61,244 nucleotides of DNA from a virus, in the IMG/VR virus record IMGVR_UViG_3300021335_001271, positions 1 to 61,244 of that record, one strand, 5' to 3'. This document shows positions 3-35,766 of the stretch, one piece after another. The notes beneath the pieces are model-generated. The model was not told the DNA's origin. It made no database searches and was given only the letters and a program-made list of their open reading frames with translations. Numbering within the stretch: position 1 is the first letter of the stretch; the number at the start of each line of letters is the position of its first letter. The translations under genes and the position numbers were made by a program.

Positions 3-695
3 TTTGTAGATAGTGTTGCACCTACACTAGAACGACTGTATATGACAGGTGGCGAACCTACACTTATACAAGCAAACCAATATGTGCTAGATAAACTTGT
101 AGAAACAGGTAATACAAAATGTCATGTTGCCTGGACTACAAATATGACCACATGGCCTGAAGGATTTTATGATAAACTGGATTTCTTTGATTCAAGCGAA
201 GTACAGATGAGCATAGACGGATATGGTGATCACAACATGTATATACGCTATCCTACAGATTGGAACAAGGTAGAAGAAAACTTTGCCAAAGCAATGACAT
301 TACCTACAAATGTAGAACTAAAAATATACTTTGTGTATCAAGCATGGAATGTGTTTGATGTTGCACCGTTGATCAAATGGTTAGAAAGCACACAAACAAG
401 ACGTGTTGATTTTGTTCCTATATTTTTAGAGCATCCAGATCAAATACACAGTTGCGTATGGCCTGACGATATTAAACACAAAGCACTCGACGATTTAAGA
501 ATGTTAAAAACACATATGCATAAAGATCCTGTTCAAAGAATCATTAACTACACACAGAATACCAATAAATATTCTGTAGAAAATATTAACAAAATGCGTC
601 AATTTATATCAATAAATGACAAATATAGAAAACACAAGTTTGGTGATGTGTTTCCGTTTTTAGATTATGTATTGGAAACTTCATGCAAGATATAA
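3..695 (+). CDS. Radical SAM enzyme, 5'-truncated by window edge
   Basis: The frame is open to the left edge, so the N-terminus with the expected CxxxCxxC iron-sulfur motif lies outside the window. The visible part starts with LERLYMTGGEPTL, whose GGEP motif binds the amino group of S-adenosylmethionine, followed by barrel-like strands (VQMSIDGYGDHN). The C-terminus (KHKFGDVFPFLDYV) resembles the twitch-type radical SAM proteins of marine T4-like phages. No SPASM cysteine cluster is visible in this part. Its end overlaps the next gene by 13 bases, so the two are translationally coupled. The substrate is unknown. Confidence 0.85.
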   Translation, partial: FVDSVAPTLERLYMTGGEPTLIQANQYVLDKLVETGNTKCHVAWTTNMTTWPEGFYDKLDFFDSSEVQMSIDGYGDHNMYIRYPTDWNKVEENFAKAMTLPTNVELKIYFVYQAWNVFDVAPLIKWLESTQTRRVDFVPIFLEHPDQIHSCVWPDDIKHKALDDLRMLKTHMHKDPVQRIINYTQNTNKYSVENINKMRQFISINDKYRKHKFGDVFPFLDYVLETSCKI

Positions 696-1675
696 AGGCT
701 ATTATTCCAGCCAAAGACAAATGGGTAAGTCTAGTATGGCAAGTTAATGACTGGTGTAACTTCCGTTGCACATATTGTAGTGAATGGAACTGGGCAGGAC
801 GCAACAAGAATGATAGTGACATTCCGCTAATTGTAAATACGCTAGAACGTATAATGTTACACTACAAAGCCAAAGGATACAAATATTTTAAACTGTATCT
901 CAGTGGTGGCGAACCTACGTTTTGGAAAGCATTAATTCCTGTTGTGGAAAAGTTTAGAGAACATGCAGAGTGGCCAGGCAGTTGTGTAGGTATTAACACC
1001 AACTTCAGCAAGCCGCTCAGTTGGTGGAAAGAAAACCATCACTTGTTTGAAGATATTGTTGCAAGTTATCATGCAGAGTGGAGTAAAGACGACAAGTATA
1101 TAGAAGTGTATAAGTTTTTACAAGACAAAAAAAATTATTTGTGCAGCAGAATAATGATGCATCACAATCATTTCCAACAGTGTATTGACTTTGGCAATAG
1201 AATCAAAGAAGAATGTGACAACTACATGATTGAGTATGCACCAGTGTATGATGAATTACGTCCTAGTACAGATCCATATCACTATGAAGAACAATGGCAA
1301 ATGGACTTTTTTAAAACAAACAGCACAGTGCAGCAGCAAAGCATTCCTATCAAGAAAGAGCCGAGCTATGCATGGGCAAAAACTTGGTTTCAAGATGATA
1401 CAATAGAACCTATCAACACCAATAGTATTATTACAGAAGGCAAAAACTTCTTTCAAGGTTGGCTTTGTAATATACACGAAAGTTTGCATATACACCCTAA
1501 CGGACGCATACAACAAGCAAGCTGTGGTGTAGGTCCTATTGTGGGTAACATTGTGCAAGGCGAGTTTAACACAACAATGAGTGACGGTGTGTGGTGTCCA
1601 AAGTCACATTGTCACTGTGCAGCAGATTTTAACATTAGTAAAGCAAGGCCAGAGTATGCAGACAAAATTAGATAA
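683..1675 (+). CDS. Radical SAM enzyme with C-terminal cysteine cluster
   Basis: This 330-aa protein has the radical SAM motif CNFRCTYC (Cys25, 29, 32), which holds the 4Fe-4S cluster that cleaves SAM, and GGEP at residues 75-78. The C-terminus has further cysteines (WLCNIH, ASCGVG, CPKSHCHC) in a SPASM/twitch-like arrangement that could hold auxiliary clusters. It sits between two other radical SAM genes, overlapping the first by 13 bases and the third by 20. SPASM enzymes commonly modify peptides or alcohol and sugar substrates; which applies here cannot be told. Confidence 0.9.
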   Translation: MQDIKAIIPAKDKWVSLVWQVNDWCNFRCTYCSEWNWAGRNKNDSDIPLIVNTLERIMLHYKAKGYKYFKLYLSGGEPTFWKALIPVVEKFREHAEWPGSCVGINTNFSKPLSWWKENHHLFEDIVASYHAEWSKDDKYIEVYKFLQDKKNYLCSRIMMHHNHFQQCIDFGNRIKEECDNYMIEYAPVYDELRPSTDPYHYEEQWQMDFFKTNSTVQQQSIPIKKEPSYAWAKTWFQDDTIEPINTNSIITEGKNFFQGWLCNIHESLHIHPNGRIQQASCGVGPIVGNIVQGEFNTTMSDGVWCPKSHCHCAADFNISKARPEYADKIR

Positions 1676-2993
1676 ATTACCAAAAAATTATTGCTATCTT
1701 GCTAACCAAGGATTTAGTAGTCATCCACATGGTCGTAGTCGTCCATGTTGCTTTAGTATGGTAGGTACAAATAGTTTTATGCCTGGTGTTAAAATTGACA
1801 ACATTCGTGAATGGGAACATCATAATAATAGTAACAGCGATACTTTAGCACAGTTTGTAAATGATCCTCAAATAAAAAAAATACGCAAGCAATTAATTAA
1901 CAATGAAGTGCCAGACGGGTGTCGCAGTTGCTTTGGTTTAGAAGAACAAGGTATCCGTAGTTTTAGACAAACGTGGAATGAAATATATGAAGATCATATA
2001 GACGAAACTCTACAACATTTGCAGCCAGACGGCACAATTGATCAAAAAGCAATTACCTATTTGGATATCAGTTTAGGGAATGTGTGCAACTTAAAATGTC
2101 GTAGTTGCAATCCTTGGGCAAGTCATAGATGGATAGAAGAAGGTCCTACAGTACCACACACTGATTGGGATGAAACAGCATATAAAATTGCAGAACTTAG
2201 CAGTAAGGACCCTTGGTTTGTACGTGCATTTGCAGAAGGTTATTTTGATGATGTATTGCCAAATGTGCGTGTGATTAATTTTGTTGGTGGCGAGCCGCTT
2301 GTGGTAGAAGAACACTATGCTTGGCTTGAACATATTATTGAACAAGGATGGAGCAAGAACATTGAGCTACATTATAATACAAATGCTACAACAATACCAG
2401 ATAGACTGCTAAACATTTGGGACAAGTTTCGTGGCGTAATATTAAGTCTAAGTATTGATGCTATTGGTGATCTTGCATATTATGTACGACATCCTAGCAA
2501 ATGGAAAATTGTAGAACGTAATGTGCAAAAATTAAAAGAGTTCAGTGCTACACGACACGGTGTTTTAGTTCATACACATGTCACACTGAGTGTATTAAAC
2601 ATTCATGATTTACCAAATATATTAGATTGGTGTAAAAAACAATATGATGAATGGCACTATACATGGGCTTGGGGTAACTTTGGATATCAAAATTGCCTAC
2701 CACATTTTAATATTGTAGAAAATCCATATAACATGCATTTGCGTAATTTGCCACAAGAACGCAAAGACTTGATGAATGAAATGCTAGAAGAACAGTATGA
2801 GAGATTTAAGTCAGCAGACTTGCCAGAGTGGGAACAATGGGCAGTGGAAAACATTATAGGTTTAAAAAATATAATTAATCAACAATCAGATGAAAATGGT
2901 TGGCAGCATTTTATCGACAATACACATGCCAGTGATAAATTTAGGAAACTGGACATACACAATTATATTCCTTGGATGAAGGAGTACTTTTGA
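1656..2993 (+). CDS. Twitch-domain radical SAM enzyme
   Basis: I chose the ATG at 1656 (445 aa) rather than an upstream GTG at 1581 that lies deep inside the previous gene. An N-terminal cysteine region (CC at 31-32, then CRSC at 89-92) precedes the radical SAM core with CNLKCRSC (Cys144, 148, 151) and GGEP at 211-214. This order, auxiliary cysteines before the SAM barrel, is typical of the twitch-domain radical SAM family common in marine myophages. The stop codon overlaps the TTG start of the next gene. The substrate is unknown. Confidence 0.9.
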   Translation: MQTKLDKLPKNYCYLANQGFSSHPHGRSRPCCFSMVGTNSFMPGVKIDNIREWEHHNNSNSDTLAQFVNDPQIKKIRKQLINNEVPDGCRSCFGLEEQGIRSFRQTWNEIYEDHIDETLQHLQPDGTIDQKAITYLDISLGNVCNLKCRSCNPWASHRWIEEGPTVPHTDWDETAYKIAELSSKDPWFVRAFAEGYFDDVLPNVRVINFVGGEPLVVEEHYAWLEHIIEQGWSKNIELHYNTNATTIPDRLLNIWDKFRGVILSLSIDAIGDLAYYVRHPSKWKIVERNVQKLKEFSATRHGVLVHTHVTLSVLNIHDLPNILDWCKKQYDEWHYTWAWGNFGYQNCLPHFNIVENPYNMHLRNLPQERKDLMNEMLEEQYERFKSADLPEWEQWAVENIIGLKNIINQQSDENGWQHFIDNTHASDKFRKLDIHNYIPWMKEYF

Positions 2994-3535
2994 AACTTGT
3001 TAGTTTTGGTGATGAATATACAAAAGATGTTGCAAACAACCTAGCAAATAGTTTAGGTTTTGAGTTTTGCGATTTGTCAAAACATGATACATGTAATCAA
3101 CAGATATTTAGAGATGTAATTGATTTTAGTGCTGACGATCTAAAAAATGTTTTTATACTAATAGGATGGACACACAGTAAAAGGTTAGAAATACATTGGA
3201 AAGAAACATTTACATATAGGCCAGATGTAAATGAATACATTGACAATGGTATTAATAGTTTGCATAGATTTGACGACATACTGTTCAACGATATTTTATT
3301 AACACAGCATTGGGCAAGCGAAGCATACACACTACAACAAGTTTTAACATCTAAGAATACGAAATATTACATGTATAACACACAAGACTGCATGTACTAT
3401 AATGAAAAAACAAAACATTATATAGATAGCTTGTGTAGAGTACATTATCATAATCCTGTGAATTTACAAAGCAGTATCAAATATCAAAAAGAGGATTTTT
3501 TACTGGGTAAAATTCATGCAGGAGGTATATTATGA
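2990..3535 (+). CDS. Degenerate SGNH-hydrolase-like protein
   Basis: I placed the start at the TTG at 2990, which overlaps the TGA stop of the previous gene (TTGA) and has an AAGGAG ribosome-binding site five bases upstream. This start also aligns the protein (MKLVSFG) with its neighbour at 3532 (MKYLVAFG). The 181-aa product shares with its two paralogues a W-T-[SH] segment followed by R-x-E (GWTHSKRLEI). The nucleophile position is SFGDEYT, where the paralogue has AFGCSHT, so the catalytic Ser appears lost. No C-terminal DxxH-like block is visible. It may be a non-catalytic partner. Confidence 0.7.
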   Translation: MKLVSFGDEYTKDVANNLANSLGFEFCDLSKHDTCNQQIFRDVIDFSADDLKNVFILIGWTHSKRLEIHWKETFTYRPDVNEYIDNGINSLHRFDDILFNDILLTQHWASEAYTLQQVLTSKNTKYYMYNTQDCMYYNEKTKHYIDSLCRVHYHNPVNLQSSIKYQKEDFLLGKIHAGGIL

Positions 3536-4257
3536 AATATCTTGTTGCATTTGGTTGTAGTCATACCAACGGTAGTATGCTTGATGGCACAGCAGGTAGC
3601 AGTTACGAAAATACACAAAGATCGTTTGGTGGCATATTGGCTAAACGTCATGGATACAAATTTTACAATATTAGCAAGCCGGGCGGCAGTAATGCATATA
3701 TTCATAGATGTGTTGTTGAATACATAACTCATTACATGGATAAAGATACGCCTCAACTGTTCCTAATCAATTGGACCAGCAGACCACGCATGGAATATAG
3801 ATATCCCGAAGATACTCATGTGCATGATACCTACGGTGATTTTGTAGATAAAAAGTCTGTGCCTTTTACTGTGGGCAGCAATCCTAGTTTATTTCATGAT
3901 AATAGATACGGACAATTACAAACATATTCGCCGTATTTTTTAGATCCTGATATCAACAGTATGAGATGGGCTACTTGGGCTTATGGACTACAGTGTATGC
4001 TAGATCATATGCGTATTCCATACTTGATGACAAATACTTGCGAAGGTATGCCTGTTATACCAGGTAATGAAAAAATTGTAGATAAACTAAATTTACAAAA
4101 GTACATAGATCCTTTTGATTATAATCAATGCATGTTAGGTTATCTCACTGCAAAAGGATATAAAAAAACAACGTGTTGGCATTTTAGAGAAGATGGGCAT
4201 TTAGCATGGGCAAAAAAACTTGATAAACACTTGAAGGAGTTAGGTTATGTTGAATAG
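3532..4257 (+). CDS. SGNH/GDSL-family hydrolase-like protein
   Basis: This 241-aa protein opens with MKYLVAFGCSHTNG, where GCSHTNG fits the block I nucleophile motif of SGNH esterases and acyl hydrolases. PGGSNAYI resembles the Gly/Asn blocks, and REDGHLAWA near the C-terminus supplies a plausible DxxH-type catalytic His. It carries NWTSRPRMEYR, a segment conserved in its two paralogues in this cluster. It has a GGAGG ribosome-binding site and overlaps its neighbours by 4 and 11 bases. Likely chemistry is ester or acyl hydrolysis or transfer; the substrate is unknown. Confidence 0.75.
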   Translation: MKYLVAFGCSHTNGSMLDGTAGSSYENTQRSFGGILAKRHGYKFYNISKPGGSNAYIHRCVVEYITHYMDKDTPQLFLINWTSRPRMEYRYPEDTHVHDTYGDFVDKKSVPFTVGSNPSLFHDNRYGQLQTYSPYFLDPDINSMRWATWAYGLQCMLDHMRIPYLMTNTCEGMPVIPGNEKIVDKLNLQKYIDPFDYNQCMLGYLTAKGYKKTTCWHFREDGHLAWAKKLDKHLKELGYVE

Positions 4258-5230
4258 ATATATTATAAATGAAAAGTTTAGATACAAAACAAACGACTTT
4301 AACTTTAGACTAGGGTTTTTGGAAGAAACAACTGTAAATAGGCAAGTATTATTCACAAGAATAGATCATTGGAAAAATGTGTTGTTGAGATATTGCGGAG
4401 TACATGCAGGGCAGTCGTTAATGATACATATGAATCAAAACAGTCTTGATGTTTTTGCAATTTATTTTGCAGCAATAGAATGTGATATAAATCTAGTGGA
4501 TTGCAACCCAGATATTATAATTCATAATCTAGCTGATACAGAACTTGAAACACTGCAATTTAACAAGACAAAAAATTATAATTATTTTGACTTAGCTGAT
4601 ATAAAATTCACAGGAAACATCGATTATCAACAACAGGGAACGGCAACTGTTTATGGCAGTATTCAAAACGACTTGCCAAACAAAGTCGATGTAAATGGAA
4701 ATGTTTTACATACCAAATATAAAAATAGCATGTTATTCAAAAATTTCTTTTTACCCAGTCTAAATCAAAAAGTAGAAGCGCACTTTGCTTTAGGATACAA
4801 TGATTTAAATTTAGGATTAGATAAAATTGCCCATATTGTACAGAAATGTGCGATAGATTGTATAGTACTTCCTCATATTCAAGCAGTTTGTGTTTTACAA
4901 AATTGTTGTTCTAAAAGGAATATAGATACATCAAATTTAAAAATATTTTATGCGCAAAACGACTATCTAGTACAAAATAACAATGTTGATTATATCGATC
5001 AGTACAGTGATATCCCCGAAATGTTTCATTTAAATGGAAAGATATTACAAGACAATGAAAAATTATATTTTCAATTTTTTTCAAAAACAGATCCAGCAGT
5101 AGCACAAGTAAAAATTAATTCTATAAATTCATACTTGAAAAAGAAATATGATAAAACTATTTACAAATGGGATGTGCTGGATGCCATGCTCGATTTAGAA
5201 GACACATTGGTAATGTTTAGGAATTTGTAA
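4247..5230 (+). CDS. Divergent ANL-superfamily (AMP-binding-like) protein
   Basis: This 327-aa protein is not an obvious family member. Residues 35-85 (DHWKNVLLRYCGVHAGQ, then LMIHMNQNSLDVFAIYFAAI, then NLVDCNPD) follow the N-terminal pattern of acyl- and aryl-CoA ligases and adenylation domains, where a residue run like LGVxxGDxV is followed by N-x-x-x-F-x-x-x-Y-x-A-x-x-x-G. A later HTKYKNS and FFLPSL stretch looks like the tH-x-x-L region. The P-loop-like TSGTTGxPK motif is not preserved, and the C-terminal domain is absent. It lies between SGNH-like genes. I infer a degenerate or specialised adenylating or acyl-binding protein. Confidence 0.45.
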   Translation: MLNRYIINEKFRYKTNDFNFRLGFLEETTVNRQVLFTRIDHWKNVLLRYCGVHAGQSLMIHMNQNSLDVFAIYFAAIECDINLVDCNPDIIIHNLADTELETLQFNKTKNYNYFDLADIKFTGNIDYQQQGTATVYGSIQNDLPNKVDVNGNVLHTKYKNSMLFKNFFLPSLNQKVEAHFALGYNDLNLGLDKIAHIVQKCAIDCIVLPHIQAVCVLQNCCSKRNIDTSNLKIFYAQNDYLVQNNNVDYIDQYSDIPEMFHLNGKILQDNEKLYFQFFSKTDPAVAQVKINSINSYLKKKYDKTIYKWDVLDAMLDLEDTLVMFRNL

Positions 5231-6003
5231 TGCGAGTAGTATATAGCGACGGATGCAGTTTAATGGCAGGCGCAGAACATGAATCATGGCTTGTAAATTC
5301 AGACACAGGTTATGAGGAATGTGATACTACATGGAGTGCTGTTTTACAAAAAAGATATTTTCCTGATGCAGAATTTATGAGCAGAGCCGCTACAGCAACT
5401 AGTAATTTTAGTATAGCAAGAAGAACTCTTCACTATGTAAATGAATTGTTAAAGGAATATGATGCAAGTGATATACTTGTGTGTATAATGTGGACCAGCA
5501 TTTATAGAAAAGAATTTAGAACTAGCAAAGGCTATTTTAGCACTCTTCCTACTGACAATTCAGTAAGTTTTAAACAAAAGCCAGCAGGCGAAATTATGGA
5601 TTATAATTTAAGAAAAAATATACTTAAAGAACATAATCTTTACAACTTGGCAGATGCATATTATAGAGCACTTAATCAACCTATAAATTTTACTTTGGAT
5701 AGTATGTCACAGATTGAATATGTAAATCTATTTTTACAAAAACATGAGATAAAATCTATCCAGTGTCATGGCTTTGGTGAACACTTTTATCATTTGCAGC
5801 AAGATTCAGATGCATATTTGCAAAGTATGGCAGATCGCATAAAAAGTTTTAACATATATTACATTAATAAACGTCCGCCGCAAGGTTTTAACGAATGGGC
5901 AAATGGCTCATTCAAACTAGGGCCAGGACTACACCCATTAGAAGGCGCACACGAAATGTGGGCAAACTTGTTGGCAAAAAAATACTTGACAAGCATTACA
6001 TAA
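5230..6003 (+). CDS. SGNH-hydrolase-like protein, third paralogue
   Basis: This 257-aa protein begins MRVVYSDGCSLMAG, matching the nucleophile block of the neighbour at 3532, and repeats the shared WTSIYRKEFR segment. The C-terminal HPLEGAHEMWANLL offers a candidate catalytic His. The ATG overlaps the TAA stop of the previous gene (TAATG), making it the last member of the coupled chain that starts before the window. The function is inferred as an esterase or acyltransferase of unknown substrate. Confidence 0.65.
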   Translation: MRVVYSDGCSLMAGAEHESWLVNSDTGYEECDTTWSAVLQKRYFPDAEFMSRAATATSNFSIARRTLHYVNELLKEYDASDILVCIMWTSIYRKEFRTSKGYFSTLPTDNSVSFKQKPAGEIMDYNLRKNILKEHNLYNLADAYYRALNQPINFTLDSMSQIEYVNLFLQKHEIKSIQCHGFGEHFYHLQQDSDAYLQSMADRIKSFNIYYINKRPPQGFNEWANGSFKLGPGLHPLEGAHEMWANLLAKKYLTSIT

Positions 6004-8692: not shown

Positions 8693-9139
8693 ATGAGTTA
8701 CTATAGCACAAAAACATATGGGCACAACATTGGATTGAGTGCCTGCTTTAGACAACCTAAAGCACATAGCCATTGCAGATTCTTACACGGATATAGTTTG
8801 CAATTTAGATTTACATTTGCAGCAAATGAACTAGACGAAAAGAACTGGGTAGTTGACTTTGGTGGTTTGAAGCCGCTTAAAGCATGGCTAGAAGACATGT
8901 TCGATCACAAAGTTGTATTGGATGCAGATGATCCAGAAATGGCGACATTTGAATTACTACAAGACAAAGGACTAGCAGAACTTACAATTTTGGACGGTGT
9001 AGGTGTAGAACGTTTTGCATATCATGCTTGGGAACAAGCAGATGAACTAGTGCAAGAAATGACCAACGGTCGTTGTCGTTGTGTTGAAGTAGAATGTGCT
9101 GAGCATGGAGCAAACAGTGCAATCTACAAAGCAGACTAA
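8693..9139 (+). CDS. queD: QueD-like 6-carboxytetrahydropterin synthase family protein
   Basis: This 148-aa protein belongs to the QueD/6-pyruvoyl-tetrahydropterin synthase fold, which makes the pterin precursor of 7-deazaguanine bases (preQ0, queuosine). Supporting motifs are SHCRFLHGY (25-34), VDFGGLK (54-60) and FDHK. The usual zinc-site HGH is HGY here, and the usual upstream AxH is ACF, so the zinc site differs from the classic enzyme; I know this variant from alphaproteobacterial family members. The companion enzymes FolE, QueE and QueC are not in the window. It overlaps the glycosyltransferase gene. Confidence 0.8.
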   Translation: MSYYSTKTYGHNIGLSACFRQPKAHSHCRFLHGYSLQFRFTFAANELDEKNWVVDFGGLKPLKAWLEDMFDHKVVLDADDPEMATFELLQDKGLAELTILDGVGVERFAYHAWEQADELVQEMTNGRCRCVEVECAEHGANSAIYKAD

Positions 9140-9833
9140 TTACGTAGCATGTCTTAAATGGGGCGACAAATACAGCCCCGAGTATGTCAATAAACTCAAC
9201 AGTATGGTGCGAAAGCATTGTACTGTTGATTACGAGTTTATTTGCTTTACAGAAAACAAACAAGGATTAGACAAAGATATAAACGTATTGCCATTGCCAA
9301 AGTTACGAACGCAAGGCTGGTGGTTTAAACCAATGTTTTTAGGCAGCGACTTAGGAATACAAGGCACATTATTGTTCTTAGACTTAGACGTAATTGTTTT
9401 CAATAACATAAACAAGTTGTTCAAATATGAACCTAACAAATTTTTAATATGTAGAGACTTTAATCGTAGTGTAAGACATAATTGGGATAGAATGAATAGC
9501 AGTGTGTTTAGAACTACTATTGGAAAATATGATGCAAAATGGCAAAGATTTAAAAAAAATGTTGCTCACGAAACAGCTAAATTCCGTGGAGATCAAGACT
9601 GGATGTTTGCAAACATACGTGATCACACATTTTGGCCAGATGATTGGATACAGAGTTACAAGTGGGAAATGCGTGACAGACGTGAATTAAAAATTGATAC
9701 CCATACTCGGAAAAGAAACTTTGTAACAGATTCACCTCCAAATATAAAAAAGGATACTTGTATTGCAGTATTTCACGGAGAACCAAATCCAGCTGATGCA
9801 AATGATAGTTGGGTAAAGGCAAATTGGATTTGA
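9117..9833 (+). CDS. GT-A fold glycosyltransferase-like protein
   Basis: The protein (about 238 aa) has YEFICFTENKQGL, GWWFKPMFL and LLFLDLDVIVF, the last carrying a DxD motif that binds a metal and nucleotide-sugar in GT-A enzymes. A C-terminal VFHGEPNP also fits family patterns. I favour the GTG at 9117 because GGAG lies six bases upstream; an ATG at 9105 is an alternative. It overlaps the queD-like gene by over 20 bases, implying coupling. It may glycosylate a base, a nucleoside or a surface sugar; this is not decided by sequence. Confidence 0.75.
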   Translation: MQSTKQTNYVACLKWGDKYSPEYVNKLNSMVRKHCTVDYEFICFTENKQGLDKDINVLPLPKLRTQGWWFKPMFLGSDLGIQGTLLFLDLDVIVFNNINKLFKYEPNKFLICRDFNRSVRHNWDRMNSSVFRTTIGKYDAKWQRFKKNVAHETAKFRGDQDWMFANIRDHTFWPDDWIQSYKWEMRDRRELKIDTHTRKRNFVTDSPPNIKKDTCIAVFHGEPNPADANDSWVKANWI

Positions 9834-13761: not shown

Positions 13762-14124
13762 ATGAGCATACTTACTTTAACACCAGAAGCAGAGAAACAA
13801 ATAGATCTTTTGAGCAAAGAGAACGATTGCTACGGCATTACTCTTAACATCAAAGGCGGCGGTTGTGCAGGTTTTGAGTACGATTGGGGTACTATTGCAA
13901 GCCCAACAGACTTAGAAGACGGTGACGAAGTTGTAAAAACCTCAAACGGATGTGCGTTTGTAGTAGGAGCTCATAGCCTTATGTTCTTAATAGGAACAGA
14001 AGTAGATTATGTAAAAAGTTTGGTAGGCGCAAACTTTGAAATACGCAATCCAAATGCTCAAAGTGCATGTGGTTGTGGTGTAAGTGTAAATTTTGATATG
14101 GACAGTTTAGTACCACAGTTTTAA
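13762..14124 (+). CDS. A-type iron-sulfur carrier (IscA/HesB family)
   Basis: This 120-aa protein has the family's three conserved cysteines: Cys35 in GGGCAGFEY and Cys103/Cys105 in SACGCG near the C-terminus. These hold a transferable Fe-S cluster. The size matches IscA/ErpA proteins. A late-promoter box precedes it and the tail-fibre genes follow. In bacteria these carriers mature Fe-S enzymes. Here possible clients are the seven radical SAM proteins and the ferredoxin. IscA homologues are known in marine T4-like phages. Confidence 0.9.
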   Translation: MSILTLTPEAEKQIDLLSKENDCYGITLNIKGGGCAGFEYDWGTIASPTDLEDGDEVVKTSNGCAFVVGAHSLMFLIGTEVDYVKSLVGANFEIRNPNAQSACGCGVSVNFDMDSLVPQF

Positions 14125-14135: not shown

Positions 14136-17100
14136 ATGGCAAGAAAAGAAATTGATATCGGTATTGAGGGTAACGACGGTACAGGCGATAGTATCCGTGA
14201 AAGTTTTCGTAAAGTAAATGACAACTTTCAAGAACTGTATGCTGTATTTGGACTAGGTGGTAGTATATCCTTTAAAAATATTGATGATACACCAGATAGT
14301 TATTTAGGTAATGCAGGCGGCATAGTTGCAGTCAATCAAACTGAAACCGGTATTGGTTTTTATAAATTTATAAGCGATGCATTAGATAACGCTGATACAA
14401 AATCTGCCAGTAGAATTAATAACAGTGTTGTTGTTGAATTTGATGATGTGGATCCTGCAACACCTGATCAAAGCGGAACAGTGAAAATTACAATACTAGA
14501 TCCGCATGTTGAAAGAGATCCTGATCCATCTTTTACAGCTTCTGTTGATTTTGGTGCAGTAGGTGCATATAATAATGCAACTAACACAAAACTAAGAAAT
14601 ACTAGTGGTACCGGAGATGATATAGATACATTAGTAACCCAATGGAATACCACACATTCTTTAAAAGATCCAATTACTGCTACAAATATCATTCCAAGCA
14701 TTGGTTACAATGATGATACATATGTAAATGTTTCTGGCGATACAATGACTGGTGCATTAGAAGTACCAGCAGGTGCAAGCGGCGCACAAGTTCCACGCAC
14801 AGAAGAAGTAATCACAAGAGCAGGCAGCGAAGAAAACAGACGTATGCTTGACACACTGTATTTGTCAGACCATCCAAATCCAATCGAAGGGTTTGGTACT
14901 CCAAATGGCAAAGACGATTTACAAGCTGTAACAAAACTTTATGTTGATACACAAGGTTATAGCAGTGCTACAAACATTTATGTCGCTACCACAGGTGATG
15001 ATAATCAATCAAGTACTCCAGCAGGACAAGAAGGTAGAGCACCTCAGTATGCATATAAAAGTATAAATGCTGCAATGGCTCGTGCCACAGAAATTATTGA
15101 ATCTACACCATACGAACCAGGACCATATGTACAAACAATCACGTATGACTTGCAATCTAAAAATACAACAATTAGCGCAGTAAGTGGATACACTGCATGG
15201 GGTGGTGGCATTGCCGCAGCAGCAAGTCCAATTGTTACACAAAACATCATAGGACTTCAAGAAGAAGTAGAAGAATATGTAGCAACAAATTTTCCTGATC
15301 TAGAATATAATGTTGATACTTGTAAAAGAGATATACAATTAATTATTGATAGTGTCAGACTTGATGTCCTAGCAGGACCAACTGTAAATTATCTTTCACG
15401 TTGGGCAGGACTTAGATACAATGCCAACCCAAGTGCTGTAAAGGCAAAAACAACACAATTAGATGCAACTGTTGGTAGTATCGGTCTTGTAAAAAGCAGA
15501 ATTTTATCTATCTTATCAGATGAATTAACAATTACCTCAGGTGATGCTGTTTATGATGCATATCAAGATAGATTTAATAATGTGTTAGATATTATACAAG
15601 GCACTACTGTAGATATAGAAAGCACTGGTACAGGATATGTATTTGATTTCTTAAATGGTACCTATGACAGTGTGGATCAAGGTATCGAAGGCAACAGTGA
15701 TTTACGTGAAGGTAAATTAATTGTAGGTAAATCAAGTGGTGCAAAAGGTATTATCACAGACTATCGTAGAACAGCAACAGGTACAACAGACAGTATTACA
15801 GTAGATCTAGTTGAACCAATTGAATTTGAAACAGGTGAAGAATTAGAATATGGTAACTTAACACGAAATAACCAAGTTACAGTGCGTGTAGAATCAGGCA
15901 TTTATTACGAACATCTTCCAATTAAATTGCCAGAGAACGTTAGTATCAAAGGTGATGAATTTAGAAGAGTTGTTTTAAGACCAAAACCTGGCGTGTCACA
16001 AAGTGTTTGGGCAAACACATATTTTTACAGAGATGCAGTAATTGATGACTTACCTGCTGCATATTCACCAATCAGCACCACAAGTGCAGTTGCAACTGAC
16101 GCAAGTAGAAGTAATACAGGTTCGCCATATACAATTACAAGTAGTCAGTGGTCATCAAATGGTGCAGGTATTGATGCAGAATTTGAAGTTGCAGTTGATG
16201 CAGTAGGTGCAACAACAGTTACAGTAACCAATGAAGGTGATGGATTTGTTGTAGGCGATACAATTACTATTGCTGACACTGCATTGGGTAGTGGTGGTGC
16301 AGCCGATGTAACATTTACTGTAACAGCAACAGGTGGCGGTACAACCTTTGTCCACCCAATCAGTGGCAAAAATGGTAAGTATGGTTATCACTATCTTGCT
16401 GATCCTAGTACACCAGTAAATGTAGGAAGTTTTGGTACAACGAATCCTGGTAACTTTGACCAGGCAGCAAGATTGATTGAATTCAACAAGTTCTTTATTA
16501 TTGAAGAAACAATTGAATACATTAATGCTACCTATCCTACATTGGTTTATGATCAAGGTAAATGTGAAAGAGACACTGGTTTAATTATTGACGGTATTAT
16601 CAGTGACTTGAAGTCCGGCGGTAGAGAAGCTACACTTACTAATCAAGGTGCTTACTATGAAGGTGCTGTTAGCGGACAAGAAACAGAAACAGCAGCAGCG
16701 ATTACAAATCTAAAAACCATTATCGAACACGTTTTGCTCAACGGCGATGTATCAAGCACATACACACCGTTGGGTACAGTTGATCAAATTACTGATGAAG
16801 ATTACACTGCCGAAGCAGACTCACTAACAAATGCACAACAACTTTGTGACTGTGTTGCATTTGCATTTAATGTTAGCTACAATCCTCCATTGAACAACAG
16901 TGAAATGGATGTTTTGTTGTGTAACGATGGTACAATTGTAAGAAACATCACAGTGCAGAGACACGGTGGCTTTATGATGGTGCTGGATCCAGAAGGACAG
17001 ATTCTTACAAGATCTCCTTATTGCCAAACTGGATCAAGTTTCTCACAATCAAAAGGCACACGTAGAAATTTTGCAGGTGGTCTGTTTATTGACGGTTATG

Positions 17101-20100
17101 CAGGTAACATGCCTGTTAGTGTTTCTGGTGTGAATAGTGCATTTAACATTAATGTTGTATCTCCAGCAGGCGAAGGTTTGTTTGTTAGACGACCTCCTAC
17201 TCCGTTTCCATTCTTTTACAACGGTGGCAGATATCAAGTTAACACAATTACAAACTATAACAAAACAACTGGTACTGCAACATTTGTATTAGACGAAACA
17301 AGTAACGTTGCTGATAGAGTAATCAGAGAAATTGATGCAATTACACAGGCAAGTCCTGCAGTAATTACATTCACTTCAAATCATCCTTTTAATGATGGTG
17401 ACAGAATACAAATCAGTAATGTAAATGGTATGACAGAAATCAACGGTGATACAGTTTATGTTAAAACAACAGGTAGTCCAGATACAGTTGAACTTTACAC
17501 CGATCTTGCCCTAACAAGTGGATATAGCACAGTTACATACACAACCTACACAGGTGGTGGTAATGCTGTGAGTATTGCAGAAGGACAAGGTTGGACCAGT
17601 GGTACAGGTGTTGATATCTTTGTACAAAGTGGTGGTAACAGATCAATGCTTGCTAACGACTTTACACAAATCAACGATTTAGGATTTGGTTGTCTTGCTA
17701 TAAACAACGCATTGTCAGAACTTGTTAGTATGTTCACATACTATTGTCATACAGGTTATCTTGCAGCTGATGGCTCACAGATTCGTAGTATTGCTGGTAA
17801 CAACAGTTACGGCTTCTTTGGACTAGTTGCCGAAGGTAGTGATCCAGATGAGATTGCAACAGATGTTCAACTTGGTGCTGATATGGTATTCCCTGCTAAA
17901 ACATTTAGAGCAGATGGATACTTAGACTTTGCAGCAGCAGTTCCTAGCGTAGGAACCATTACAGTAGGACAAACACTTACACAAGGTTTAATTGAACTTA
18001 CAATCACAGGTATTACACAGGCAAATCCAGCAGTGGTTACAACAAGTGTAGCACACGGACTGTCAAACAGTGATTTTGTAACAATCAATGATGTTGTGGG
18101 TATGATAGAAATAAATGGATTACAGTTCTATGTTGATACTGATGGTAGTGGTAGTGCCGGTGGTACATTCACCACAAGTGAATTTGCATTATACACTGAT
18201 AGTGCATTAACAACAACATATGACAGTACAACTAATACAGCATACAGTAGTGCAGGTGAAGCAGTTAGAGCAGCTAATGCAACTGGTATTGTCAGCTTCT
18301 TAGGCGAAGAAAATGCCAGTGGTAATCCTACAAGAATTTATGTGCATAGCACATCAGGTGTGTTTAATACAACTGGAACTTGTACAACACCAACAGCAAG
18401 CACAGTAGGCATTCCGAACAACGTAGAAACACTTGATTTAGATGCACCAGAAGATTCACTGTTTATGTACGCATATGACTTGGGTGGTTTCCCAAATAAC
18501 ATCAGTGAAGTTGAAGTGTTCCATGATGTCAATCTTTATCAACCTTATGAGATTACCAATGCTACAGATGCAGAATTTACAATTGGTGGATATTCAATTG
18601 AAGTAGATACAGCAGTAGGTGTTACATATGCAGGTAGTGGTACTGGTGCAGTTTTACAAATTAGCAAAATACAAACAGGCGGTGGCACATATCAAGTTAG
18701 AGTTGATAATGCAGGAGACGGAAGTCCAGCAAGTTATGTAGCAACTGAGACTATTACAATCCCGGGTAACCTACTAGGTGGTGCTACTCCGGCAAACGAT
18801 GCAACAGTTACAATCGATGATGCTGATGGCGGTTTGATTACGTCTGCAAGTGTTACTGGTACTCCTAGAGTCGATGATAGTACTCCTATTAAAAGTGGTA
18901 TTGTCTGGAGATTTAACTTTGGTACTGGACTAGAAGGTACTGCTTCAAACGGTCTTCAACAGGATACACCACATGATACTAGATTAGTTGTTAGACACAA
19001 GCAAAACTTCTTAATGGATAGCTTCCCAGCAGAAGACTTGCCAGTGCGTCCGAGTACAGCGTTCCAGTTTATTGACGACACAAGAGATTATACATATCGT
19101 ACAATTTCATTTAGCAACACTATTACAGACGGTGTTAGTGTTGGCACAGATCAACGTATGGTTACTTTTGATAGTAACTTTAGATACATTGATTTGACAT
19201 TGGATAGAGGTGCAGCAAATGCATTAGGTGATACTGAAAGTGCATTTTATGCGGCTGCAACAGTGAATCCAAACTACACAGACATTATGGCGGCTCCTAC
19301 TCCTGCACTAAGCGGTAGTATTACAATGGGTACTACGGCTGCAACAACCAGTACAGATGGTAGTAGATTCCTAGTTATTAGTCCATTAGACGAAACTGAC
19401 GAAGAAAGAATTCTCAACGCTGATATGATCTTTACCTGGGGTGGTAAAATACACCAAATTGATGGATATGCAGTTTATGATTATCCAGCAGGTGCAGGAA
19501 CTAGAGAAGTTGGCGTTATTCAAATTTCAGATGTGTCAGGCAGTGACATTAACTTCCCAGCATTAAGTGGAAGTTTGTACGGAGGATTGGGTCTAAGTGC
19601 CGAGATATCAGATGGACTTGTGTTAAAAGCAGGTCTCGCACAAGGCGAAAACGCAGAGATCACTGTTAATATTAGTACATGTCGTGCAACAGGACATGAT
19701 ATGCTAGACATTGGTGTTGGTGGTTATAACACTGCTAACTATCCAGAACGTATCTTTGGTGAACCATTTGGTACAAGTGCAATTAGTACAAACGATGCTA
19801 TCGACAGTGAAGGCTTCAACAGTGCTGCACAAGTACAAGAACGCAACAAAGGGCGTGTGTTCACTGTTATGACTGACCAAGATGGTTTCTTCCGTGTTGG
19901 TAGATTCTTTACAGTTGACCAAGGTACTGGTAGTGTTACATTCAACGCTGCACTTGTTCTTACAAACATTGATGGTATTGGTTTTAAACGTGGTGTTCGT
20001 GTAAATGAGTTTTCAAACGATGCAACATTTACTGATGCCAAAGGTGACGCAGTTCCTACACAAACAGCAGTTGAAGGATATATCAACGCACGTTTAGGTA

Positions 20101-21257
20101 GAGACAGAAATGGTACTGCACTAACAACAGGATTAATCCCAACAGGTGGCGGATACATATTTAAACTAGGCGACACAATGGCTGGTACGCTGAACATGGG
20201 TTCAAATACACTAACTGGTCTTGCTAACCCAGATCCTGCACAGCCAACTGATGCTGTTAATATTCAGTACTTTGAAGATAACACAGACGAAATCAACGAC
20301 ATCGGTGACGTAACTATAACAGGTACTGGCACAGGCATACGTGGTAACCTGTTGGTATTCAACGGTACTGACCAAGACAGTGAAAACTGTGCTATCACAG
20401 GCGACATCGAAGTAACATACGACCCGCTAACACCTAACCAAATTGAAATTGGATTTACAGCAGGCAGTATCACTAACGATGACGTTGCTGCTGATGCTGC
20501 AATTGAACAAAGCAAGTTGGATTTACAAGCGGCAGTTACAGCAGCATCGGCGCCAGGCAGCTTTGATCAAAGTCTATTAGGCCTTGCACGTTTTGACAGC
20601 GGATCATTTACAGCAACTAATGGTTGGATTGAAATCACAGCAGGCGGAATTGCTAATGCTAAACTAGCAAACGACAGTATTACAATTGGCTCTACTGAAG
20701 TTTTCTTAGGTGATACTATTACAAACCTAACTGGCATTGGAACTATTAATCACACTGGTGATATATTAGGCCCAGCAGGAAGCTCACCAGACAATGGTGT
20801 TAGCATTGGTAGCAGTGCAAACAGATACAACACTGTATGGGCAAGCACATTTAATGGTACTGCAACAGAAGCACTATACGCTGACTTAGCAGAAAACTAC
20901 TTAGGCGATGCAGACTATGAACCAGGTACAGTGCTTGTATTTGGCGGTGATGCAGAAGTGACAGTATGTAGTGCTAAAGGTCAAACCAGTGTTGCAGGTG
21001 TTGTAACAACTAACCCAGCACACTTGATGAACAGTGCATTAGAAGGTGATCACGTTGTAGGATTAGCACTACAAGGTAGAGTACCATGTAAAGTGATTGG
21101 CACTGTAAAGAAAGGCGATATGCTGGTTACAAGTGCCGTACCAGGTTATGCAATAGTGAATAACTCCCCAGGCGTAGGACAAGTGCTTGGTAAAGCAGTT
21201 GGTACAAAAGACACCGAAGACAGAGGTGTTGTAGAGATTGTGGTAGGGAGAGTATAA
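14136..21257 (+). CDS. Giant tail-fibre protein of 2373 aa
   Basis: The N-terminus (EIDIGIEGNDGTGDSIRESF, then FRKVNDNFQELY) is a module shared with the proteins at 21257 and 25863 and probably docks the fibre. Residues around 280-320 (IYVATTGDDNQSSTPAGQEG) begin a pectate-lyase-like beta-helix region. Two YDxxKCxRDxxLIID-type segments and two ITQAxPAVxT...GM.EING repeats follow. The C-terminus (LAENYLGDADYEPGTVLVFG) resembles the self-cleaving or trimer-tip domain of phage fibres (peptidase G2-like). It is a host-recognition component. Confidence 0.88.
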   Translation: MARKEIDIGIEGNDGTGDSIRESFRKVNDNFQELYAVFGLGGSISFKNIDDTPDSYLGNAGGIVAVNQTETGIGFYKFISDALDNADTKSASRINNSVVVEFDDVDPATPDQSGTVKITILDPHVERDPDPSFTASVDFGAVGAYNNATNTKLRNTSGTGDDIDTLVTQWNTTHSLKDPITATNIIPSIGYNDDTYVNVSGDTMTGALEVPAGASGAQVPRTEEVITRAGSEENRRMLDTLYLSDHPNPIEGFGTPNGKDDLQAVTKLYVDTQGYSSATNIYVATTGDDNQSSTPAGQEGRAPQYAYKSINAAMARATEIIESTPYEPGPYVQTITYDLQSKNTTISAVSGYTAWGGGIAAAASPIVTQNIIGLQEEVEEYVATNFPDLEYNVDTCKRDIQLIIDSVRLDVLAGPTVNYLSRWAGLRYNANPSAVKAKTTQLDATVGSIGLVKSRILSILSDELTITSGDAVYDAYQDRFNNVLDIIQGTTVDIESTGTGYVFDFLNGTYDSVDQGIEGNSDLREGKLIVGKSSGAKGIITDYRRTATGTTDSITVDLVEPIEFETGEELEYGNLTRNNQVTVRVESGIYYEHLPIKLPENVSIKGDEFRRVVLRPKPGVSQSVWANTYFYRDAVIDDLPAAYSPISTTSAVATDASRSNTGSPYTITSSQWSSNGAGIDAEFEVAVDAVGATTVTVTNEGDGFVVGDTITIADTALGSGGAADVTFTVTATGGGTTFVHPISGKNGKYGYHYLADPSTPVNVGSFGTTNPGNFDQAARLIEFNKFFIIEETIEYINATYPTLVYDQGKCERDTGLIIDGIISDLKSGGREATLTNQGAYYEGAVSGQETETAAAITNLKTIIEHVLLNGDVSSTYTPLGTVDQITDEDYTAEADSLTNAQQLCDCVAFAFNVSYNPPLNNSEMDVLLCNDGTIVRNITVQRHGGFMMVLDPEGQILTRSPYCQTGSSFSQSKGTRRNFAGGLFIDGYAGNMPVSVSGVNSAFNINVVSPAGEGLFVRRPPTPFPFFYNGGRYQVNTITNYNKTTGTATFVLDETSNVADRVIREIDAITQASPAVITFTSNHPFNDGDRIQISNVNGMTEINGDTVYVKTTGSPDTVELYTDLALTSGYSTVTYTTYTGGGNAVSIAEGQGWTSGTGVDIFVQSGGNRSMLANDFTQINDLGFGCLAINNALSELVSMFTYYCHTGYLAADGSQIRSIAGNNSYGFFGLVAEGSDPDEIATDVQLGADMVFPAKTFRADGYLDFAAAVPSVGTITVGQTLTQGLIELTITGITQANPAVVTTSVAHGLSNSDFVTINDVVGMIEINGLQFYVDTDGSGSAGGTFTTSEFALYTDSALTTTYDSTTNTAYSSAGEAVRAANATGIVSFLGEENASGNPTRIYVHSTSGVFNTTGTCTTPTASTVGIPNNVETLDLDAPEDSLFMYAYDLGGFPNNISEVEVFHDVNLYQPYEITNATDAEFTIGGYSIEVDTAVGVTYAGSGTGAVLQISKIQTGGGTYQVRVDNAGDGSPASYVATETITIPGNLLGGATPANDATVTIDDADGGLITSASVTGTPRVDDSTPIKSGIVWRFNFGTGLEGTASNGLQQDTPHDTRLVVRHKQNFLMDSFPAEDLPVRPSTAFQFIDDTRDYTYRTISFSNTITDGVSVGTDQRMVTFDSNFRYIDLTLDRGAANALGDTESAFYAAATVNPNYTDIMAAPTPALSGSITMGTTAATTSTDGSRFLVISPLDETDEERILNADMIFTWGGKIHQIDGYAVYDYPAGAGTREVGVIQISDVSGSDINFPALSGSLYGGLGLSAEISDGLVLKAGLAQGENAEITVNISTCRATGHDMLDIGVGGYNTANYPERIFGEPFGTSAISTNDAIDSEGFNSAAQVQERNKGRVFTVMTDQDGFFRVGRFFTVDQGTGSVTFNAALVLTNIDGIGFKRGVRVNEFSNDATFTDAKGDAVPTQTAVEGYINARLGRDRNGTALTTGLIPTGGGYIFKLGDTMAGTLNMGSNTLTGLANPDPAQPTDAVNIQYFEDNTDEINDIGDVTITGTGTGIRGNLLVFNGTDQDSENCAITGDIEVTYDPLTPNQIEIGFTAGSITNDDVAADAAIEQSKLDLQAAVTAASAPGSFDQSLLGLARFDSGSFTATNGWIEITAGGIANAKLANDSITIGSTEVFLGDTITNLTGIGTINHTGDILGPAGSSPDNGVSIGSSANRYNTVWASTFNGTATEALYADLAENYLGDADYEPGTVLVFGGDAEVTVCSAKGQTSVAGVVTTNPAHLMNSALEGDHVVGLALQGRVPCKVIGTVKKGDMLVTSAVPGYAIVNNSPGVGQVLGKAVGTKDTEDRGVVEIVVGRV

Positions 21258-31364: not shown

Positions 31365-31889
31365 ATGCTATTGAAAACTGATGACTTAGGTATCCCACGA
31401 TTTACAAATCGCGATTTGATCGATATGATTTATAGTGGCAATGTAGAAAAGTGCCACGTTGTTCTCTGTGATCAAAATGATGATGTAGATAAGTTTAACA
31501 CTGCAATGCAAGCGCAAGGTATGAGCCCATTGCAAAAGTATATCCCGCTAGATGTAGATCAAAAGACTTTTGATGGTGTGTGTCAAAGTGAATGGTTTAT
31601 GCCACAAGAATATAAAGAACTTGATGTTTATACATTTGTAATGAACAAAGCAGGTGATGATTTAGCAGAATTAGAAAGAGTTGAAGAAGAACTTGCACAA
31701 TTTAAAGTACGAGGTATGGACAACTTGCTACGCTATATGATCTATCTTGTAGATTTTATGCGTGAGAATGGGATTGTATGGGGTGTAGGACGTGGATCAA
31801 GTGTAGCAAGTTATGTGTTGTATTTGATAGGCGTGCATCGCATAGATAGTGTCAAGTATGATTTAGATTGGCGTGAATTCTTACGATGA
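31365..31889 (+). CDS. DNA polymerase III alpha-subunit-like fragment
   Basis: This 174-aa protein ends with VWGVGRGSSVASYVLYLIGV followed by DSVKYDLDWREFL. That matches the bacterial PolIII alpha (DnaE) segment GRGSAAGSLVxYxLGIT...DPLxYxLxFERFL, a nucleotide-binding part of the catalytic palm. The remainder of DnaE is absent, so it cannot be a polymerase on its own. I recall related short proteins in T4-like cyanophages. It has its own promoter and a four-base overlap with the following radical SAM gene. Confidence 0.75.
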   Translation: MLLKTDDLGIPRFTNRDLIDMIYSGNVEKCHVVLCDQNDDVDKFNTAMQAQGMSPLQKYIPLDVDQKTFDGVCQSEWFMPQEYKELDVYTFVMNKAGDDLAELERVEEELAQFKVRGMDNLLRYMIYLVDFMRENGIVWGVGRGSSVASYVLYLIGVHRIDSVKYDLDWREFLR

Positions 31890-32746
31890 AACACTTCGTA
31901 GAAATGGGGCAATGGTATATTACCCATACTTGCAATCTCAGTTGTGAAAATTGTTTAAGTTATAATAACTATAAAATCGGCGGTCACGAACGTTGGGAGG
32001 ACAATGAAGAATTTGTCAAACTGTGGAGCGAGCGTGTATATATAGAAGATTGCAGTATCATAGGCGGAGAACCTTTTGCTAATCCTGATATACACAAATG
32101 GGCAATGGGTGTGCGCAAATACTTTGATACAAAAGATTTAAAAGTTTGCACAAACGGAACATACTTAGAACATCACATAGATAATATTAAACAATGGATT
32201 GACAATGGTATTGTGTTAGAAATACAATATCACGATCCTATGCACAAGCAAAAAATAGACGTTGCTATAAAACAAATACTAGGCAGCAATACACATAAAA
32301 TCACAGGACGAGATTGGCAGGGCGATCCAGATTACTATGACGAATTTGATGAAATTTATTTTGTAGATAATCGTGTGGCTATATTGGTTGTTGCCAGTTT
32401 TGAATTTTATACACATACAATTGACGGTACAGGTGATGCAGAATTTACACACAAGTTTTGTGCGTGGCGTGACTGTCATTATTTTTACCGTGGCGAGTTG
32501 TACAAATGCGGTGCATTGGTTGGCGCACAAGGTATGGCAGAAAAATTTGATCTGCTTAACAAAGACATAATTACACAGTACAAACCAGTTAATGTTTTTG
32601 ACAATGATTTAAGCAGTGCAATTAAACAACTGCAAAAGAGTGTTCCGCAGTGTGCTATGTGCAATACAAAGAAAATGTTGAACAAAACTTTTCCTGTTAG
32701 CCTAAAGAAAGTTGAATATGAACCTATACCTAGTGCAAGCCAGTGA
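31886..32746 (+). CDS. Radical SAM enzyme, WYITHTCNL-type
   Basis: This 286-aa protein has CNLSCENC (Cys16, 20, 23) and IIGGEPFANPD around 58-68. The C-terminal half has FCAWRDCHYF, LYKCGALVGAQG and QCAMCNTKK, a SPASM-like cysteine set for auxiliary clusters. It closely resembles the proteins at 37096 and 61003 in layout and motifs. It overlaps the PolIII-like gene (ATGA) and the B12 radical SAM gene. The substrate is unknown. Confidence 0.9.
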   Translation: MKHFVEMGQWYITHTCNLSCENCLSYNNYKIGGHERWEDNEEFVKLWSERVYIEDCSIIGGEPFANPDIHKWAMGVRKYFDTKDLKVCTNGTYLEHHIDNIKQWIDNGIVLEIQYHDPMHKQKIDVAIKQILGSNTHKITGRDWQGDPDYYDEFDEIYFVDNRVAILVVASFEFYTHTIDGTGDAEFTHKFCAWRDCHYFYRGELYKCGALVGAQGMAEKFDLLNKDIITQYKPVNVFDNDLSSAIKQLQKSVPQCAMCNTKKMLNKTFPVSLKKVEYEPIPSASQ

Positions 32747-34571: not shown

Positions 34572-34596
34572 CAAATATCATAAGTAATTGTAATAT
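34568..34596 (+). promoter_or_regulatory. Sigma-70 type promoter nested on a stop codon
   Basis: TTGACA (34568-34573), 17-base spacer, TAATAT (34591-34596). The TGA stop at 34569-34571 is inside the -35 hexamer. Confidence 0.7.
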
Positions 34597-34612
34597 GCAA
34601 AAGGAGAGAGAA

Positions 34613-35029
34613 ATGCCAATGAAAAATAAGGGTCGTAAGACTTATAGAAGTATGCAAGGCAAAGTGGTTGATCTTGATTTGTTAATCAAGCGCAACGAAC
34701 TGACTCCTGCTGTAGGAAATGCAAAAGTAAATGCTAGAGGCGATGAATTAGGACCTGGTGGTAAGATTGTAAAAAAACGTGAAGAAGTAATCAAAGAGTA
34801 TTACAATCAAGCACCAGTAGCACACCAATCAAAGAAGAAAGAATTATCTGAAGCAGAAGCAGCAGAGTTAGAAGAATTTGATAGCGAGCCTGTTCCTCCA
34901 AAACCTGCTCCTAAAGTTGAAGCAAAAAAGCCTGCTCCTAAAAAAGCAGAGCCTGCTAAAATTGTAGAAGTAGAAGAAGACGAATGGGTAGAAGATGAAG
35001 ATGGTAACTTTGTAAAGAAAGGTGATTAA
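34613..35029 (+). CDS. Conserved phage protein with Pro/Lys/Glu-rich tail
   Basis: The ATG at 34613 follows AAGGAGAGAG. The 138-aa protein has a conserved N-terminal half (TYRSMQGKVVDLDLLIKRNE, VGNAKVNARGDELGPGGKI) that I recognise from T4-like marine phages next to the co-chaperonin gene. The C-terminal half is acidic and Pro/Lys-rich (PKPAPKVEAKKPAPKKAEPA), likely disordered. It overlaps the co-chaperonin gene by one base. The function is unknown. Confidence 0.7.
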   Translation: MPMKNKGRKTYRSMQGKVVDLDLLIKRNELTPAVGNAKVNARGDELGPGGKIVKKREEVIKEYYNQAPVAHQSKKKELSEAEAAELEEFDSEPVPPKPAPKVEAKKPAPKKAEPAKIVEVEEDEWVEDEDGNFVKKGD

Positions 35030-35406
35030 TGAGCGAAGGAATGGGTGGTGGATTTAAAGTCACACCAAAAATTAAAGGCAAACTCAGCCCAATTAGAAAT
35101 AGAGTAATTGTAAGGGATATGCACTTCGGTGAACAAGTCACCCGTAGTGGACTTATCCTAACAGGCGACGATGGTACAACTAGAGGTATCTATCCACGCT
35201 GGTGTCGTGTACATGCAAAAGGTCCAGAAAACACAGATGATTACAATGTAGGTGATTGGATCCTAGTTGAACATGGTCGTTGGACAAGAGGCGTAGATGT
35301 TGACGAAGGCGACGGAGAATCAACACTGCGTATGGTAGAAGCAGAAAGCATTATGGGCTGGAGTAAAGAAAAACCAGATGATGTTTTTATTGGTGAAGAG
35401 GCATAA
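35029..35406 (+). CDS. GroES-like co-chaperonin (gp31 type)
   Basis: This 125-aa protein has the GroES-type barrel pattern (LSPIRNRVIVRDMHFGEQVT, RSGLILTGDDG as mobile loop, VGDWILVEHGRWTRGV). In T4, gp31 replaces host GroES on GroEL to fold the major capsid protein. The mobile loop sequence and the length fit phage co-chaperonins. It sits in a four-gene run with a MazG-like and a Bax-inhibitor-type gene. Confidence 0.85.
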   Translation: MSEGMGGGFKVTPKIKGKLSPIRNRVIVRDMHFGEQVTRSGLILTGDDGTTRGIYPRWCRVHAKGPENTDDYNVGDWILVEHGRWTRGVDVDEGDGESTLRMVEAESIMGWSKEKPDDVFIGEEA

Positions 35407-35766
35407 ATGACAAATCCATTTGCAGATATTGAACGCTTTGGCTCGGCGTGTGATCAAGAGCCATCAGAAGCAAACTATGATATGTATCTCGGTCTTATTG
35501 CAGAGGAATATACCGAACTTGCAGATGCTATAGCAGCAGATGATCGTGTAGAACAACTAGACGCACTAATTGACATATTAGTTGTTACCATGGGTGCTAT
35601 TCGTGCTGGCGGCTATGACGGAGAAGGTGCTTGGAAGGAAGTAATGGATACAAACTTTGCTAAGATTGATCCAGTCACTGGCAAAGTTCGCAAACGTGAA
35701 GATGGCAAGGTATTGAAGCCAGAAGGATGGAAGGCTCCAGAACTTGCACAGTTTATAGGAGACTAA
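35407..35766 (+). CDS. MazG/PRA-PH-like nucleotide pyrophosphohydrolase
   Basis: This 119-aa all-alpha protein has LIAEEYTELADAI and LDALIDILVVT, the ExxE and DxxxD metal-binding pairs of the MazG superfamily. These enzymes hydrolyse nucleotide triphosphates to monophosphates. Phage versions may alter nucleotide pools or alarmones. It starts one base after the co-chaperonin stop. A second MazG-like protein is at 38730. Confidence 0.85.
   Translation: MTNPFADIERFGSACDQEPSEANYDMYLGLIAEEYTELADAIAADDRVEQLDALIDILVVTMGAIRAGGYDGEGAWKEVMDTNFAKIDPVTGKVRKREDGKVLKPEGWKAPELAQFIGD

Follow-up and report, generated by a model that had tools for sequence, protein, structure and literature searches.

What three radical S-adenosylmethionine (rSAM) genes and the four genes that follow them make for an uncultivated marine phage is the question raised by the left end of IMG/VR virus record IMGVR_UViG_3300021335_001271. 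The window analysed here is the whole record of 61,244 nucleotides, which is classed as linear; such records are often fragments. The seven genes form the 3′ terminal part of a longer operon. Its conserved core is an array of rSAM genes that lies mostly outside the window, and the part comprising the SGNH genes and gene 6 is a variable tail. With moderate confidence we assign to this operon the making or tailoring of a surface glycan, most likely the lipopolysaccharide (LPS) or O-antigen of the infected cell, based upon the glycan-related neighbours of such arrays, the LPS genes of an isolated phage, the SGNH fold and the adjacency of tail-fibre genes.

The seven open reading frames (ORFs) lie on one strand and are itemized below, where N_Twi denotes an 'N-terminal twitch' radical SAM protein, corresponding to NCBIfam NF033640 ('twitch domain-containing radical SAM protein'; curated cut-off 170 bits).

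3..695, + strand: gene 1, truncated by the left edge; N_Twi radical SAM protein, array type F (NF033640)
683..1675, + strand: gene 2, radical SAM protein of 330 amino acids with a Cys-rich C-terminal region (PF04055, 28.8 bits)
1656..2993, + strand: gene 3, N_Twi radical SAM protein of type G (NF033640)
2990..3535, + strand: gene 4, degenerate SGNH paralogue lacking the Ser and His (similarity to gene 5, alignment A2)
3532..4257, + strand: gene 5, SGNH hydrolase or acyltransferase of the DUF6071 family (PF19547, 34.0 bits; cut-off 27)
4247..5230, + strand: gene 6, fast-evolving protein for which an ANL label is not supported (profile search, AF2, hhalign)
5230..6003, + strand: gene 7, SGNH hydrolase or acyltransferase of the DUF6071 family (PF19547, 35.2 bits; cut-off 27)

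The coordinates and the successive overlaps of 13, 20, 4, 4, 11 and 1 bases were confirmed from the ORF calls and by inspection of the starts of genes 2–4 in the sequence. Gene 3 starts with ATG at 1656 and gene 4 with TTG at 2990, preceded by GGAG at 2981–2984; the ORF of gene 1 is open at the left edge of the window. The original prediction, made from the sequence alone, took the overlaps to mean that the genes are made together. The overlaps are real, but as a sign of special coupling they are rejected, because genes also overlap at 27 of the 55 junctions elsewhere in this genome, outside the cluster. Overlap alone thus carries little weight, and reflects compact packing more than special coupling.

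All three genes proposed to encode radical SAM proteins are confirmed as such by their profile scores. Gene 3 scores 322.5 bits with NF033640, and its cluster cysteines are all conserved. The fragment of gene 1 scores 169.4 bits against the cut-off of 170, and its full-length orthologue in a relative (L006:7808-9043, 82% identical to gene 1) reaches 304.8 bits. The CX3CX2C and GGE motifs and the N-terminal twitch cysteines are invariant in the N_Twi alignment (A1). Gene 2 has CX3CX2C and GGE motifs, and orthologues at the same position are 79–95% identical. It is not a member of N_Twi_rSAM (NF033640 21.4 bits, the match being limited to the rSAM core), and it matches no curated rSAM subfamily in the profile search.

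The longer operon is seen in a close set comprising eleven viral relatives of gene 3 and the contigs carrying them. Where the contig reaches, the order is DUF6267, a nucleotidyltransferase, a 393-amino-acid protein, two N_Twi genes, a B12-binding rSAM and then genes 1, 2 and 3. The relatives thus have six consecutive rSAM genes, forming a core that is 71–95% identical and adjoins the tail-fibre module. The N_Twi types in this group run I/B-A-F-G, with the orthologue of gene 1 as F and gene 3 as G. The upstream B12-binding gene, probably encoding a methyltransferase, is as follows.

L006:5679-7838: B12-binding rSAM, orthologous gene upstream and outside the window (PF02310 38.6 bits and PF04055 48.8 bits, both above cut-off)

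Co-occurrence in related genomes had been set beforehand as the point on which the original prediction could fall, and the same rSAM block recurs there. The cluster extends past the left edge, as had been supposed, given the further upstream rSAM genes of the relatives.

Arrays of this kind are widespread among viral sequences. A scan of viral contigs with the N_Twi alignment gave at least 583 confirmed relatives, of which the best 80 were taken for locus analysis (three of these loci belong to one species). All 80 are arrays, having from two to seven N_Twi genes each, most commonly five. A tree was made from 477 N_Twi proteins, of which 369 viral and 100 bacterial sequences were counted. The viral proteins fall into about ten nearly single-copy clades, termed types, and 366 of the 369 keep both CX3CX2C and GGE. 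That the arrays arose by recent tandem duplication is rejected, since a paralogue from the same locus is the sister of just 3 of the 369 viral proteins. Pairs of types occur in the majority order in 602 of 629 cases (95.7%, compared with a mean of 57% and a maximum of 62% on shuffling), the most frequent order being B-D-A-C-E (18 loci). This test measures conservation and not independent origins, because the clades were picked for being single-copy and the phages have ancestors in common. Distinct enzymes in a fixed order suggest a multi-step pathway.

Of the 100 bacterial sequences, 75 fall in the type A clade. The bacterial N_Twi_rSAM loci (Bacteroidota, Elusimicrobia and Bdellovibrionota) share NF033640 with the viral arrays, and some have SGNH, carbamoyltransferase or B12-rSAM genes. 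They differ in being mostly type A and often single copy, so that the ordered multi-type array is mainly viral. Three contigs have both N_Twi and GDSL/SGNH domains (G019:C40, G018:C5 and G023:C102), the last additionally encoding a carbamoyltransferase and a sub-threshold Wzt-like match. Loci L034, L036 and L037, filed as Pelagibacter, Betaproteobacteria and Rickettsiales metagenome-assembled genomes, each combine a phage-like tail gene with an N_Twi array, and are probably of phage origin, having been placed in bacterial bins. Genes 2, 5 and 6 gave no matches when searched against isolated phages, and N_Twi proteins matched solely Vibrio phages and one short marine fragment.

Genes 5 and 7, downstream of the rSAM block, had been called SGNH enzymes, and this is upheld by DUF6071 scores above cut-off and by a catalytic Ser in block I (GCSHT/GCSLM) together with a C-terminal His (alignment A2). 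The fold was examined by model for gene 5 of this pair, giving a confident AF2 structure (pLDDT 87.4) whose Foldseek matches are the CE2 carbohydrate esterases, the peptidoglycan O-acetyltransferase PatB, and TesA. Viral scans with single sequences of gene 5 or 7 found no relatives, probably because these genes diverge too fast. Gene 4 had been described as SGNH-like. It is a paralogue of gene 5 (25% identity, E 1.3e-5), but activity as a hydrolase is unlikely. In most orthologues GDE/GDK replaces the GxS of the catalytic Ser, and the copy in the window also lacks the catalytic His (alignment A2); judged from its sequence the protein is probably non-catalytic.

Gene 6 had been assigned as an ANL-like protein, and acyl activation proposed on that account; neither finds support. 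Its sole profile match is to MenE, partial and weak (17.7 bits compared with a cut-off of 494), and its P-loop is degenerate, with none intact in the sequence. Comparison with three bacterial ANL proteins by hhalign gives a probability of 0.15%, within the range of decoys. On these sequence grounds the ANL reading is not upheld. The AF2 model has a pLDDT of 38.7 and was built from two sequences. Orthologues are confined to a few relatives, and some are just 213–229 amino acids in length.

The tail comprising SGNH, SGNH, gene 6 and SGNH is found in one species, represented by three records, and L012–L014 and L016 have a tail of two SGNH genes. Comparison of the window with its closest full relative gives a nonsynonymous divergence (dN) of 0.04–0.14 for genes 1–3, compared with 0.36–0.44 for genes 4–7, 0.32 for the adjacent fibre gene and 0.20 for the GT8-like gene, with synonymous divergence near saturation. 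Given the value for the fibre gene, the tail genes diverge like host-recognition genes at the amino-acid level. In L011 (14310-19083) the tail is replaced by genes that include DNA ligase and gyrase/topoisomerase IV subunits; one of those preceding the DNA ligase has a weak SGNH match.

The genes flanking the 80 arrays point towards glycan chemistry. GT8-like proteins, glycogenin by profile, are significantly enriched near arrays (57 loci), as is a second family in 62 loci that appears by eye to be like GT-A glycosyltransferases (GTs), an assignment that is not confirmed. SGNH proteins are also enriched (52 loci; 89 of 666 genes near arrays compared with 19 of 318 far from them), and lie preferentially on one side, 67 being within four genes downstream and 10 upstream. 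Carbamoyltransferases are enriched and present at 33 of the 80 loci, and epimerases and UDP-sugar dehydrogenases, both nucleotide-sugar enzymes, are among the neighbours. L034 has five N_Twi genes with SGNH, carbamoyltransferase, DegT aminotransferase, epimerase and PIG-L deacetylase genes. The 393-amino-acid family is frequent at arrays, but its enrichment is not significant (p = 0.84). A family of about 360 amino acids (cluster c4, in L126–L192, e.g. L150:13907-14971) is likewise significantly enriched and occurs at 33 of the 80 loci, nearly always beside the array, and has no match in the PDB. Profile searches of the PDB with the SGNH proteins, the 393-amino-acid protein and two unnamed neighbour families gave nothing useful.

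Two isolated phages have related arrangements. Vibrio phage K566 has four N_Twi genes, GT-like proteins (by eye) and annotated PagP and LpxC within about 12 kb, and in Vibrio phage QD01 an rSAM pair adjoins a protein noted as RfaF-like.

L193 20733-21999: LpxC and the adjoining annotated PagP in Vibrio phage K566, close to the N_Twi genes (LpxC, E 6.5e-19)

Within the window itself three further genes may bear upon the function of the cluster.

9096..9833, + strand: GT8-like glycosyltransferase, fast-diverging (phrog_1962, E 2.8e-21; PF01501, E 7.6e-5, below cut-off)
13762..14124, + strand: iron–sulphur (Fe–S) cluster A-type carrier (PF01521, 51.3 bits; cut-off 26.3)
14136..21257, + strand: tail or baseplate-fibre protein marking the host-recognition module (T4_gp9_10_N, 23.6 bits, just under cut-off)

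The GT8-like protein is a possible partner of the cluster, and the A-type carrier may supply Fe–S clusters to the rSAM enzymes. The presence of this carrier could alternatively be set within an auxiliary metabolic cassette that supplements the cofactor or Fe–S metabolism of the host, with no involvement of surface glycans. Similar phages with many Fe–S proteins are described in the available part of PMC5332604, where the 12 radical SAM genes and the A-type carrier of the T4-like environmental virus TARA_ERS488813_N000010 are read in terms of Fe–S metabolism. Compared by description, that virus resembles the window as a T4-like marine virus with many rSAM genes and an Fe–S carrier, but the account, as far as it is available, has no analysis of gene order, subfamily or partners. 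A cofactor cassette leaves the order of the rSAM types, the GT and SGNH partners and the adjacency of tail fibres unexplained, and we regard it as very unlikely.

The rSAM enzymes might instead make modified nucleosides, either for a DNA modification of the 7-deazaguanine type or as antiviral nucleotides like those of viperin. A QueD-like 6-pyruvoyl-tetrahydropterin synthase lies nearby in the window (8693-9139) at a position that is conserved in the relatives, viperin is the nearest solved relative of N_Twi (E 8e-7), and there are weak QueE-like and viperin matches. However, these fall far under the curated cut-offs (NF038283 for genes 2 and 3, at most 32.5 bits compared with 180 for viperin; 17.5 bits compared with 206 for QueE), and both identities are rejected. 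SGNH, GT and carbamoyltransferase neighbours are a poor fit to such chemistry, and four to seven distinct rSAM enzymes exceed its need, making this origin highly improbable.

The other genes of the window include those for baseplate and tail-fibre proteins, a clamp loader, thymidylate synthase, a Clp-type ATPase and endolysins, a content consistent with a T4-like myovirus; no gene for a major capsid protein or terminase was recognized among them. A second rSAM group is located at 31886-37995, with an rSAM gene (31886-32746), a B12-binding rSAM (32712-34571), and a nitroreductase (36479-37102) overlapping another rSAM gene (37096-37995). A further rSAM gene begins at 61003 and runs off the right edge (61003-61244).

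The fibre protein, with its T4 gp9/10-like N-terminus, is 8 kb downstream of the cluster. Adjacency to tail-fibre genes is also what would be expected were the rSAM enzymes to act on a protein or peptide, whether the fibres themselves or a RiPP-like peptide (ribosomally synthesized and post-translationally modified), with the GTs and SGNH proteins adding or trimming further groups there. Many SPASM/twitch and B12 rSAM enzymes do act on proteins, the N_Twi proteins have twitch/SPASM-like cysteines, and the best matches of the B12-rSAM are the RiPP enzyme ApyD and rSAM_ocin_1. But the RiPP scores are far under their cut-offs (97.6 bits compared with 750 for ApyD), the overlapping or abutting genes 1–7 leave no room between them for a precursor peptide, and other arrays are neighboured by sugar-nucleotide, carbamoyl and LPS genes. 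We consider this the main rival to a glycan substrate, though an unlikely one.

A surface glycan thus remains the preferred substrate. For the substrate, the reactions and the benefit to the phage we infer the following. Each rSAM enzyme would perform one distinct step (dehydrogenation, epimerization, deoxygenation or C-methylation) on a sugar or lipid-linked glycan, its Fe–S clusters aided by the A-type carrier that the virus encodes. Genes 5 and 7, as SGNH proteins, would afterwards remove or transfer acyl groups on the glycan, as the carbohydrate esterases and PatB do, with genes 4 and 6 possibly providing non-catalytic partners. With its surface changed, the cell could be closed to superinfection, or its receptor masked from virions after their release. 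The co-transcribed biosynthetic or surface-modifying pathway of the original prediction fits the recurring rSAM block, the enrichment of SGNH proteins and the glycan-related neighbours; its acyl activation and the active hydrolase of gene 4 do not survive. More tentatively, many uncultivated tailed phages may have an undescribed multi-step rSAM pathway that puts radical-made modifications on a host surface glycan during infection. Some ten ancient N_Twi types, encoded in fixed order, would make up this pathway together with B12-rSAM, glycosyltransferase and SGNH partners.

Several observations weigh against a glycan assignment. The carbamoyltransferase and two GT-like families that are common at other arrays are missing from the lineage of the window, so that distant arrays supply part of the glycan context. 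In genes 5 and 7 the Asp usually found in DxxH is absent, the sequences being TCWH and GLHP, respectively (alignment A2). The matches of the B12-rSAM include, as noted, RiPP enzymes. Shared descent of the phages could partly explain the conserved order, and no substrate or reaction of an N_Twi rSAM was found described in the open-access literature searched.

Twitch-domain rSAM enzymes such as BtrN act in aminoglycoside pathways, which are sugar pathways that use carbamoyl-, amidino- and aminotransferases. Likened by description alone, BtrN and the viral N_Twi proteins are both twitch rSAMs, but the viral twitch domain is N-terminal. Radical SAM genes were known before in phages of this kind. 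Enrichment of radical SAM and glycosyltransferase genes in viromes is reported in PMC7150976. In the available text of PMC7029224 the host recognition cluster of pelagimyophages and cyanomyophages is a variable island that lies by the tail fibres and includes GT8 glycosyltransferases, LPS genes and rSAM cassettes. The pelagimyophage cluster shares with the window variable tail genes, a tail fibre, a GT8-like gene and rSAMs. It differs in that the rSAM cassettes are mentioned in passing, and that text does not describe the ordered N_Twi array, the B12-rSAM or the SGNH tail. For the ordered array no description was found in the open-access literature, subscription journals and preprints being outside the search.

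The radical SAM genes of marine phages have so far been treated as auxiliary metabolic genes of scattered occurrence. The conserved order of types suggests that many uncultivated T4-like phages share one dedicated pathway, the product of which can be tested for. The isolated Vibrio phage K566, with a distant array beside LpxC and PagP, brings the question within reach of the bench. If LPS remodelling is indeed its function, phages would possess in this pathway a widespread means, new in its chemistry, of altering the surfaces of their hosts.

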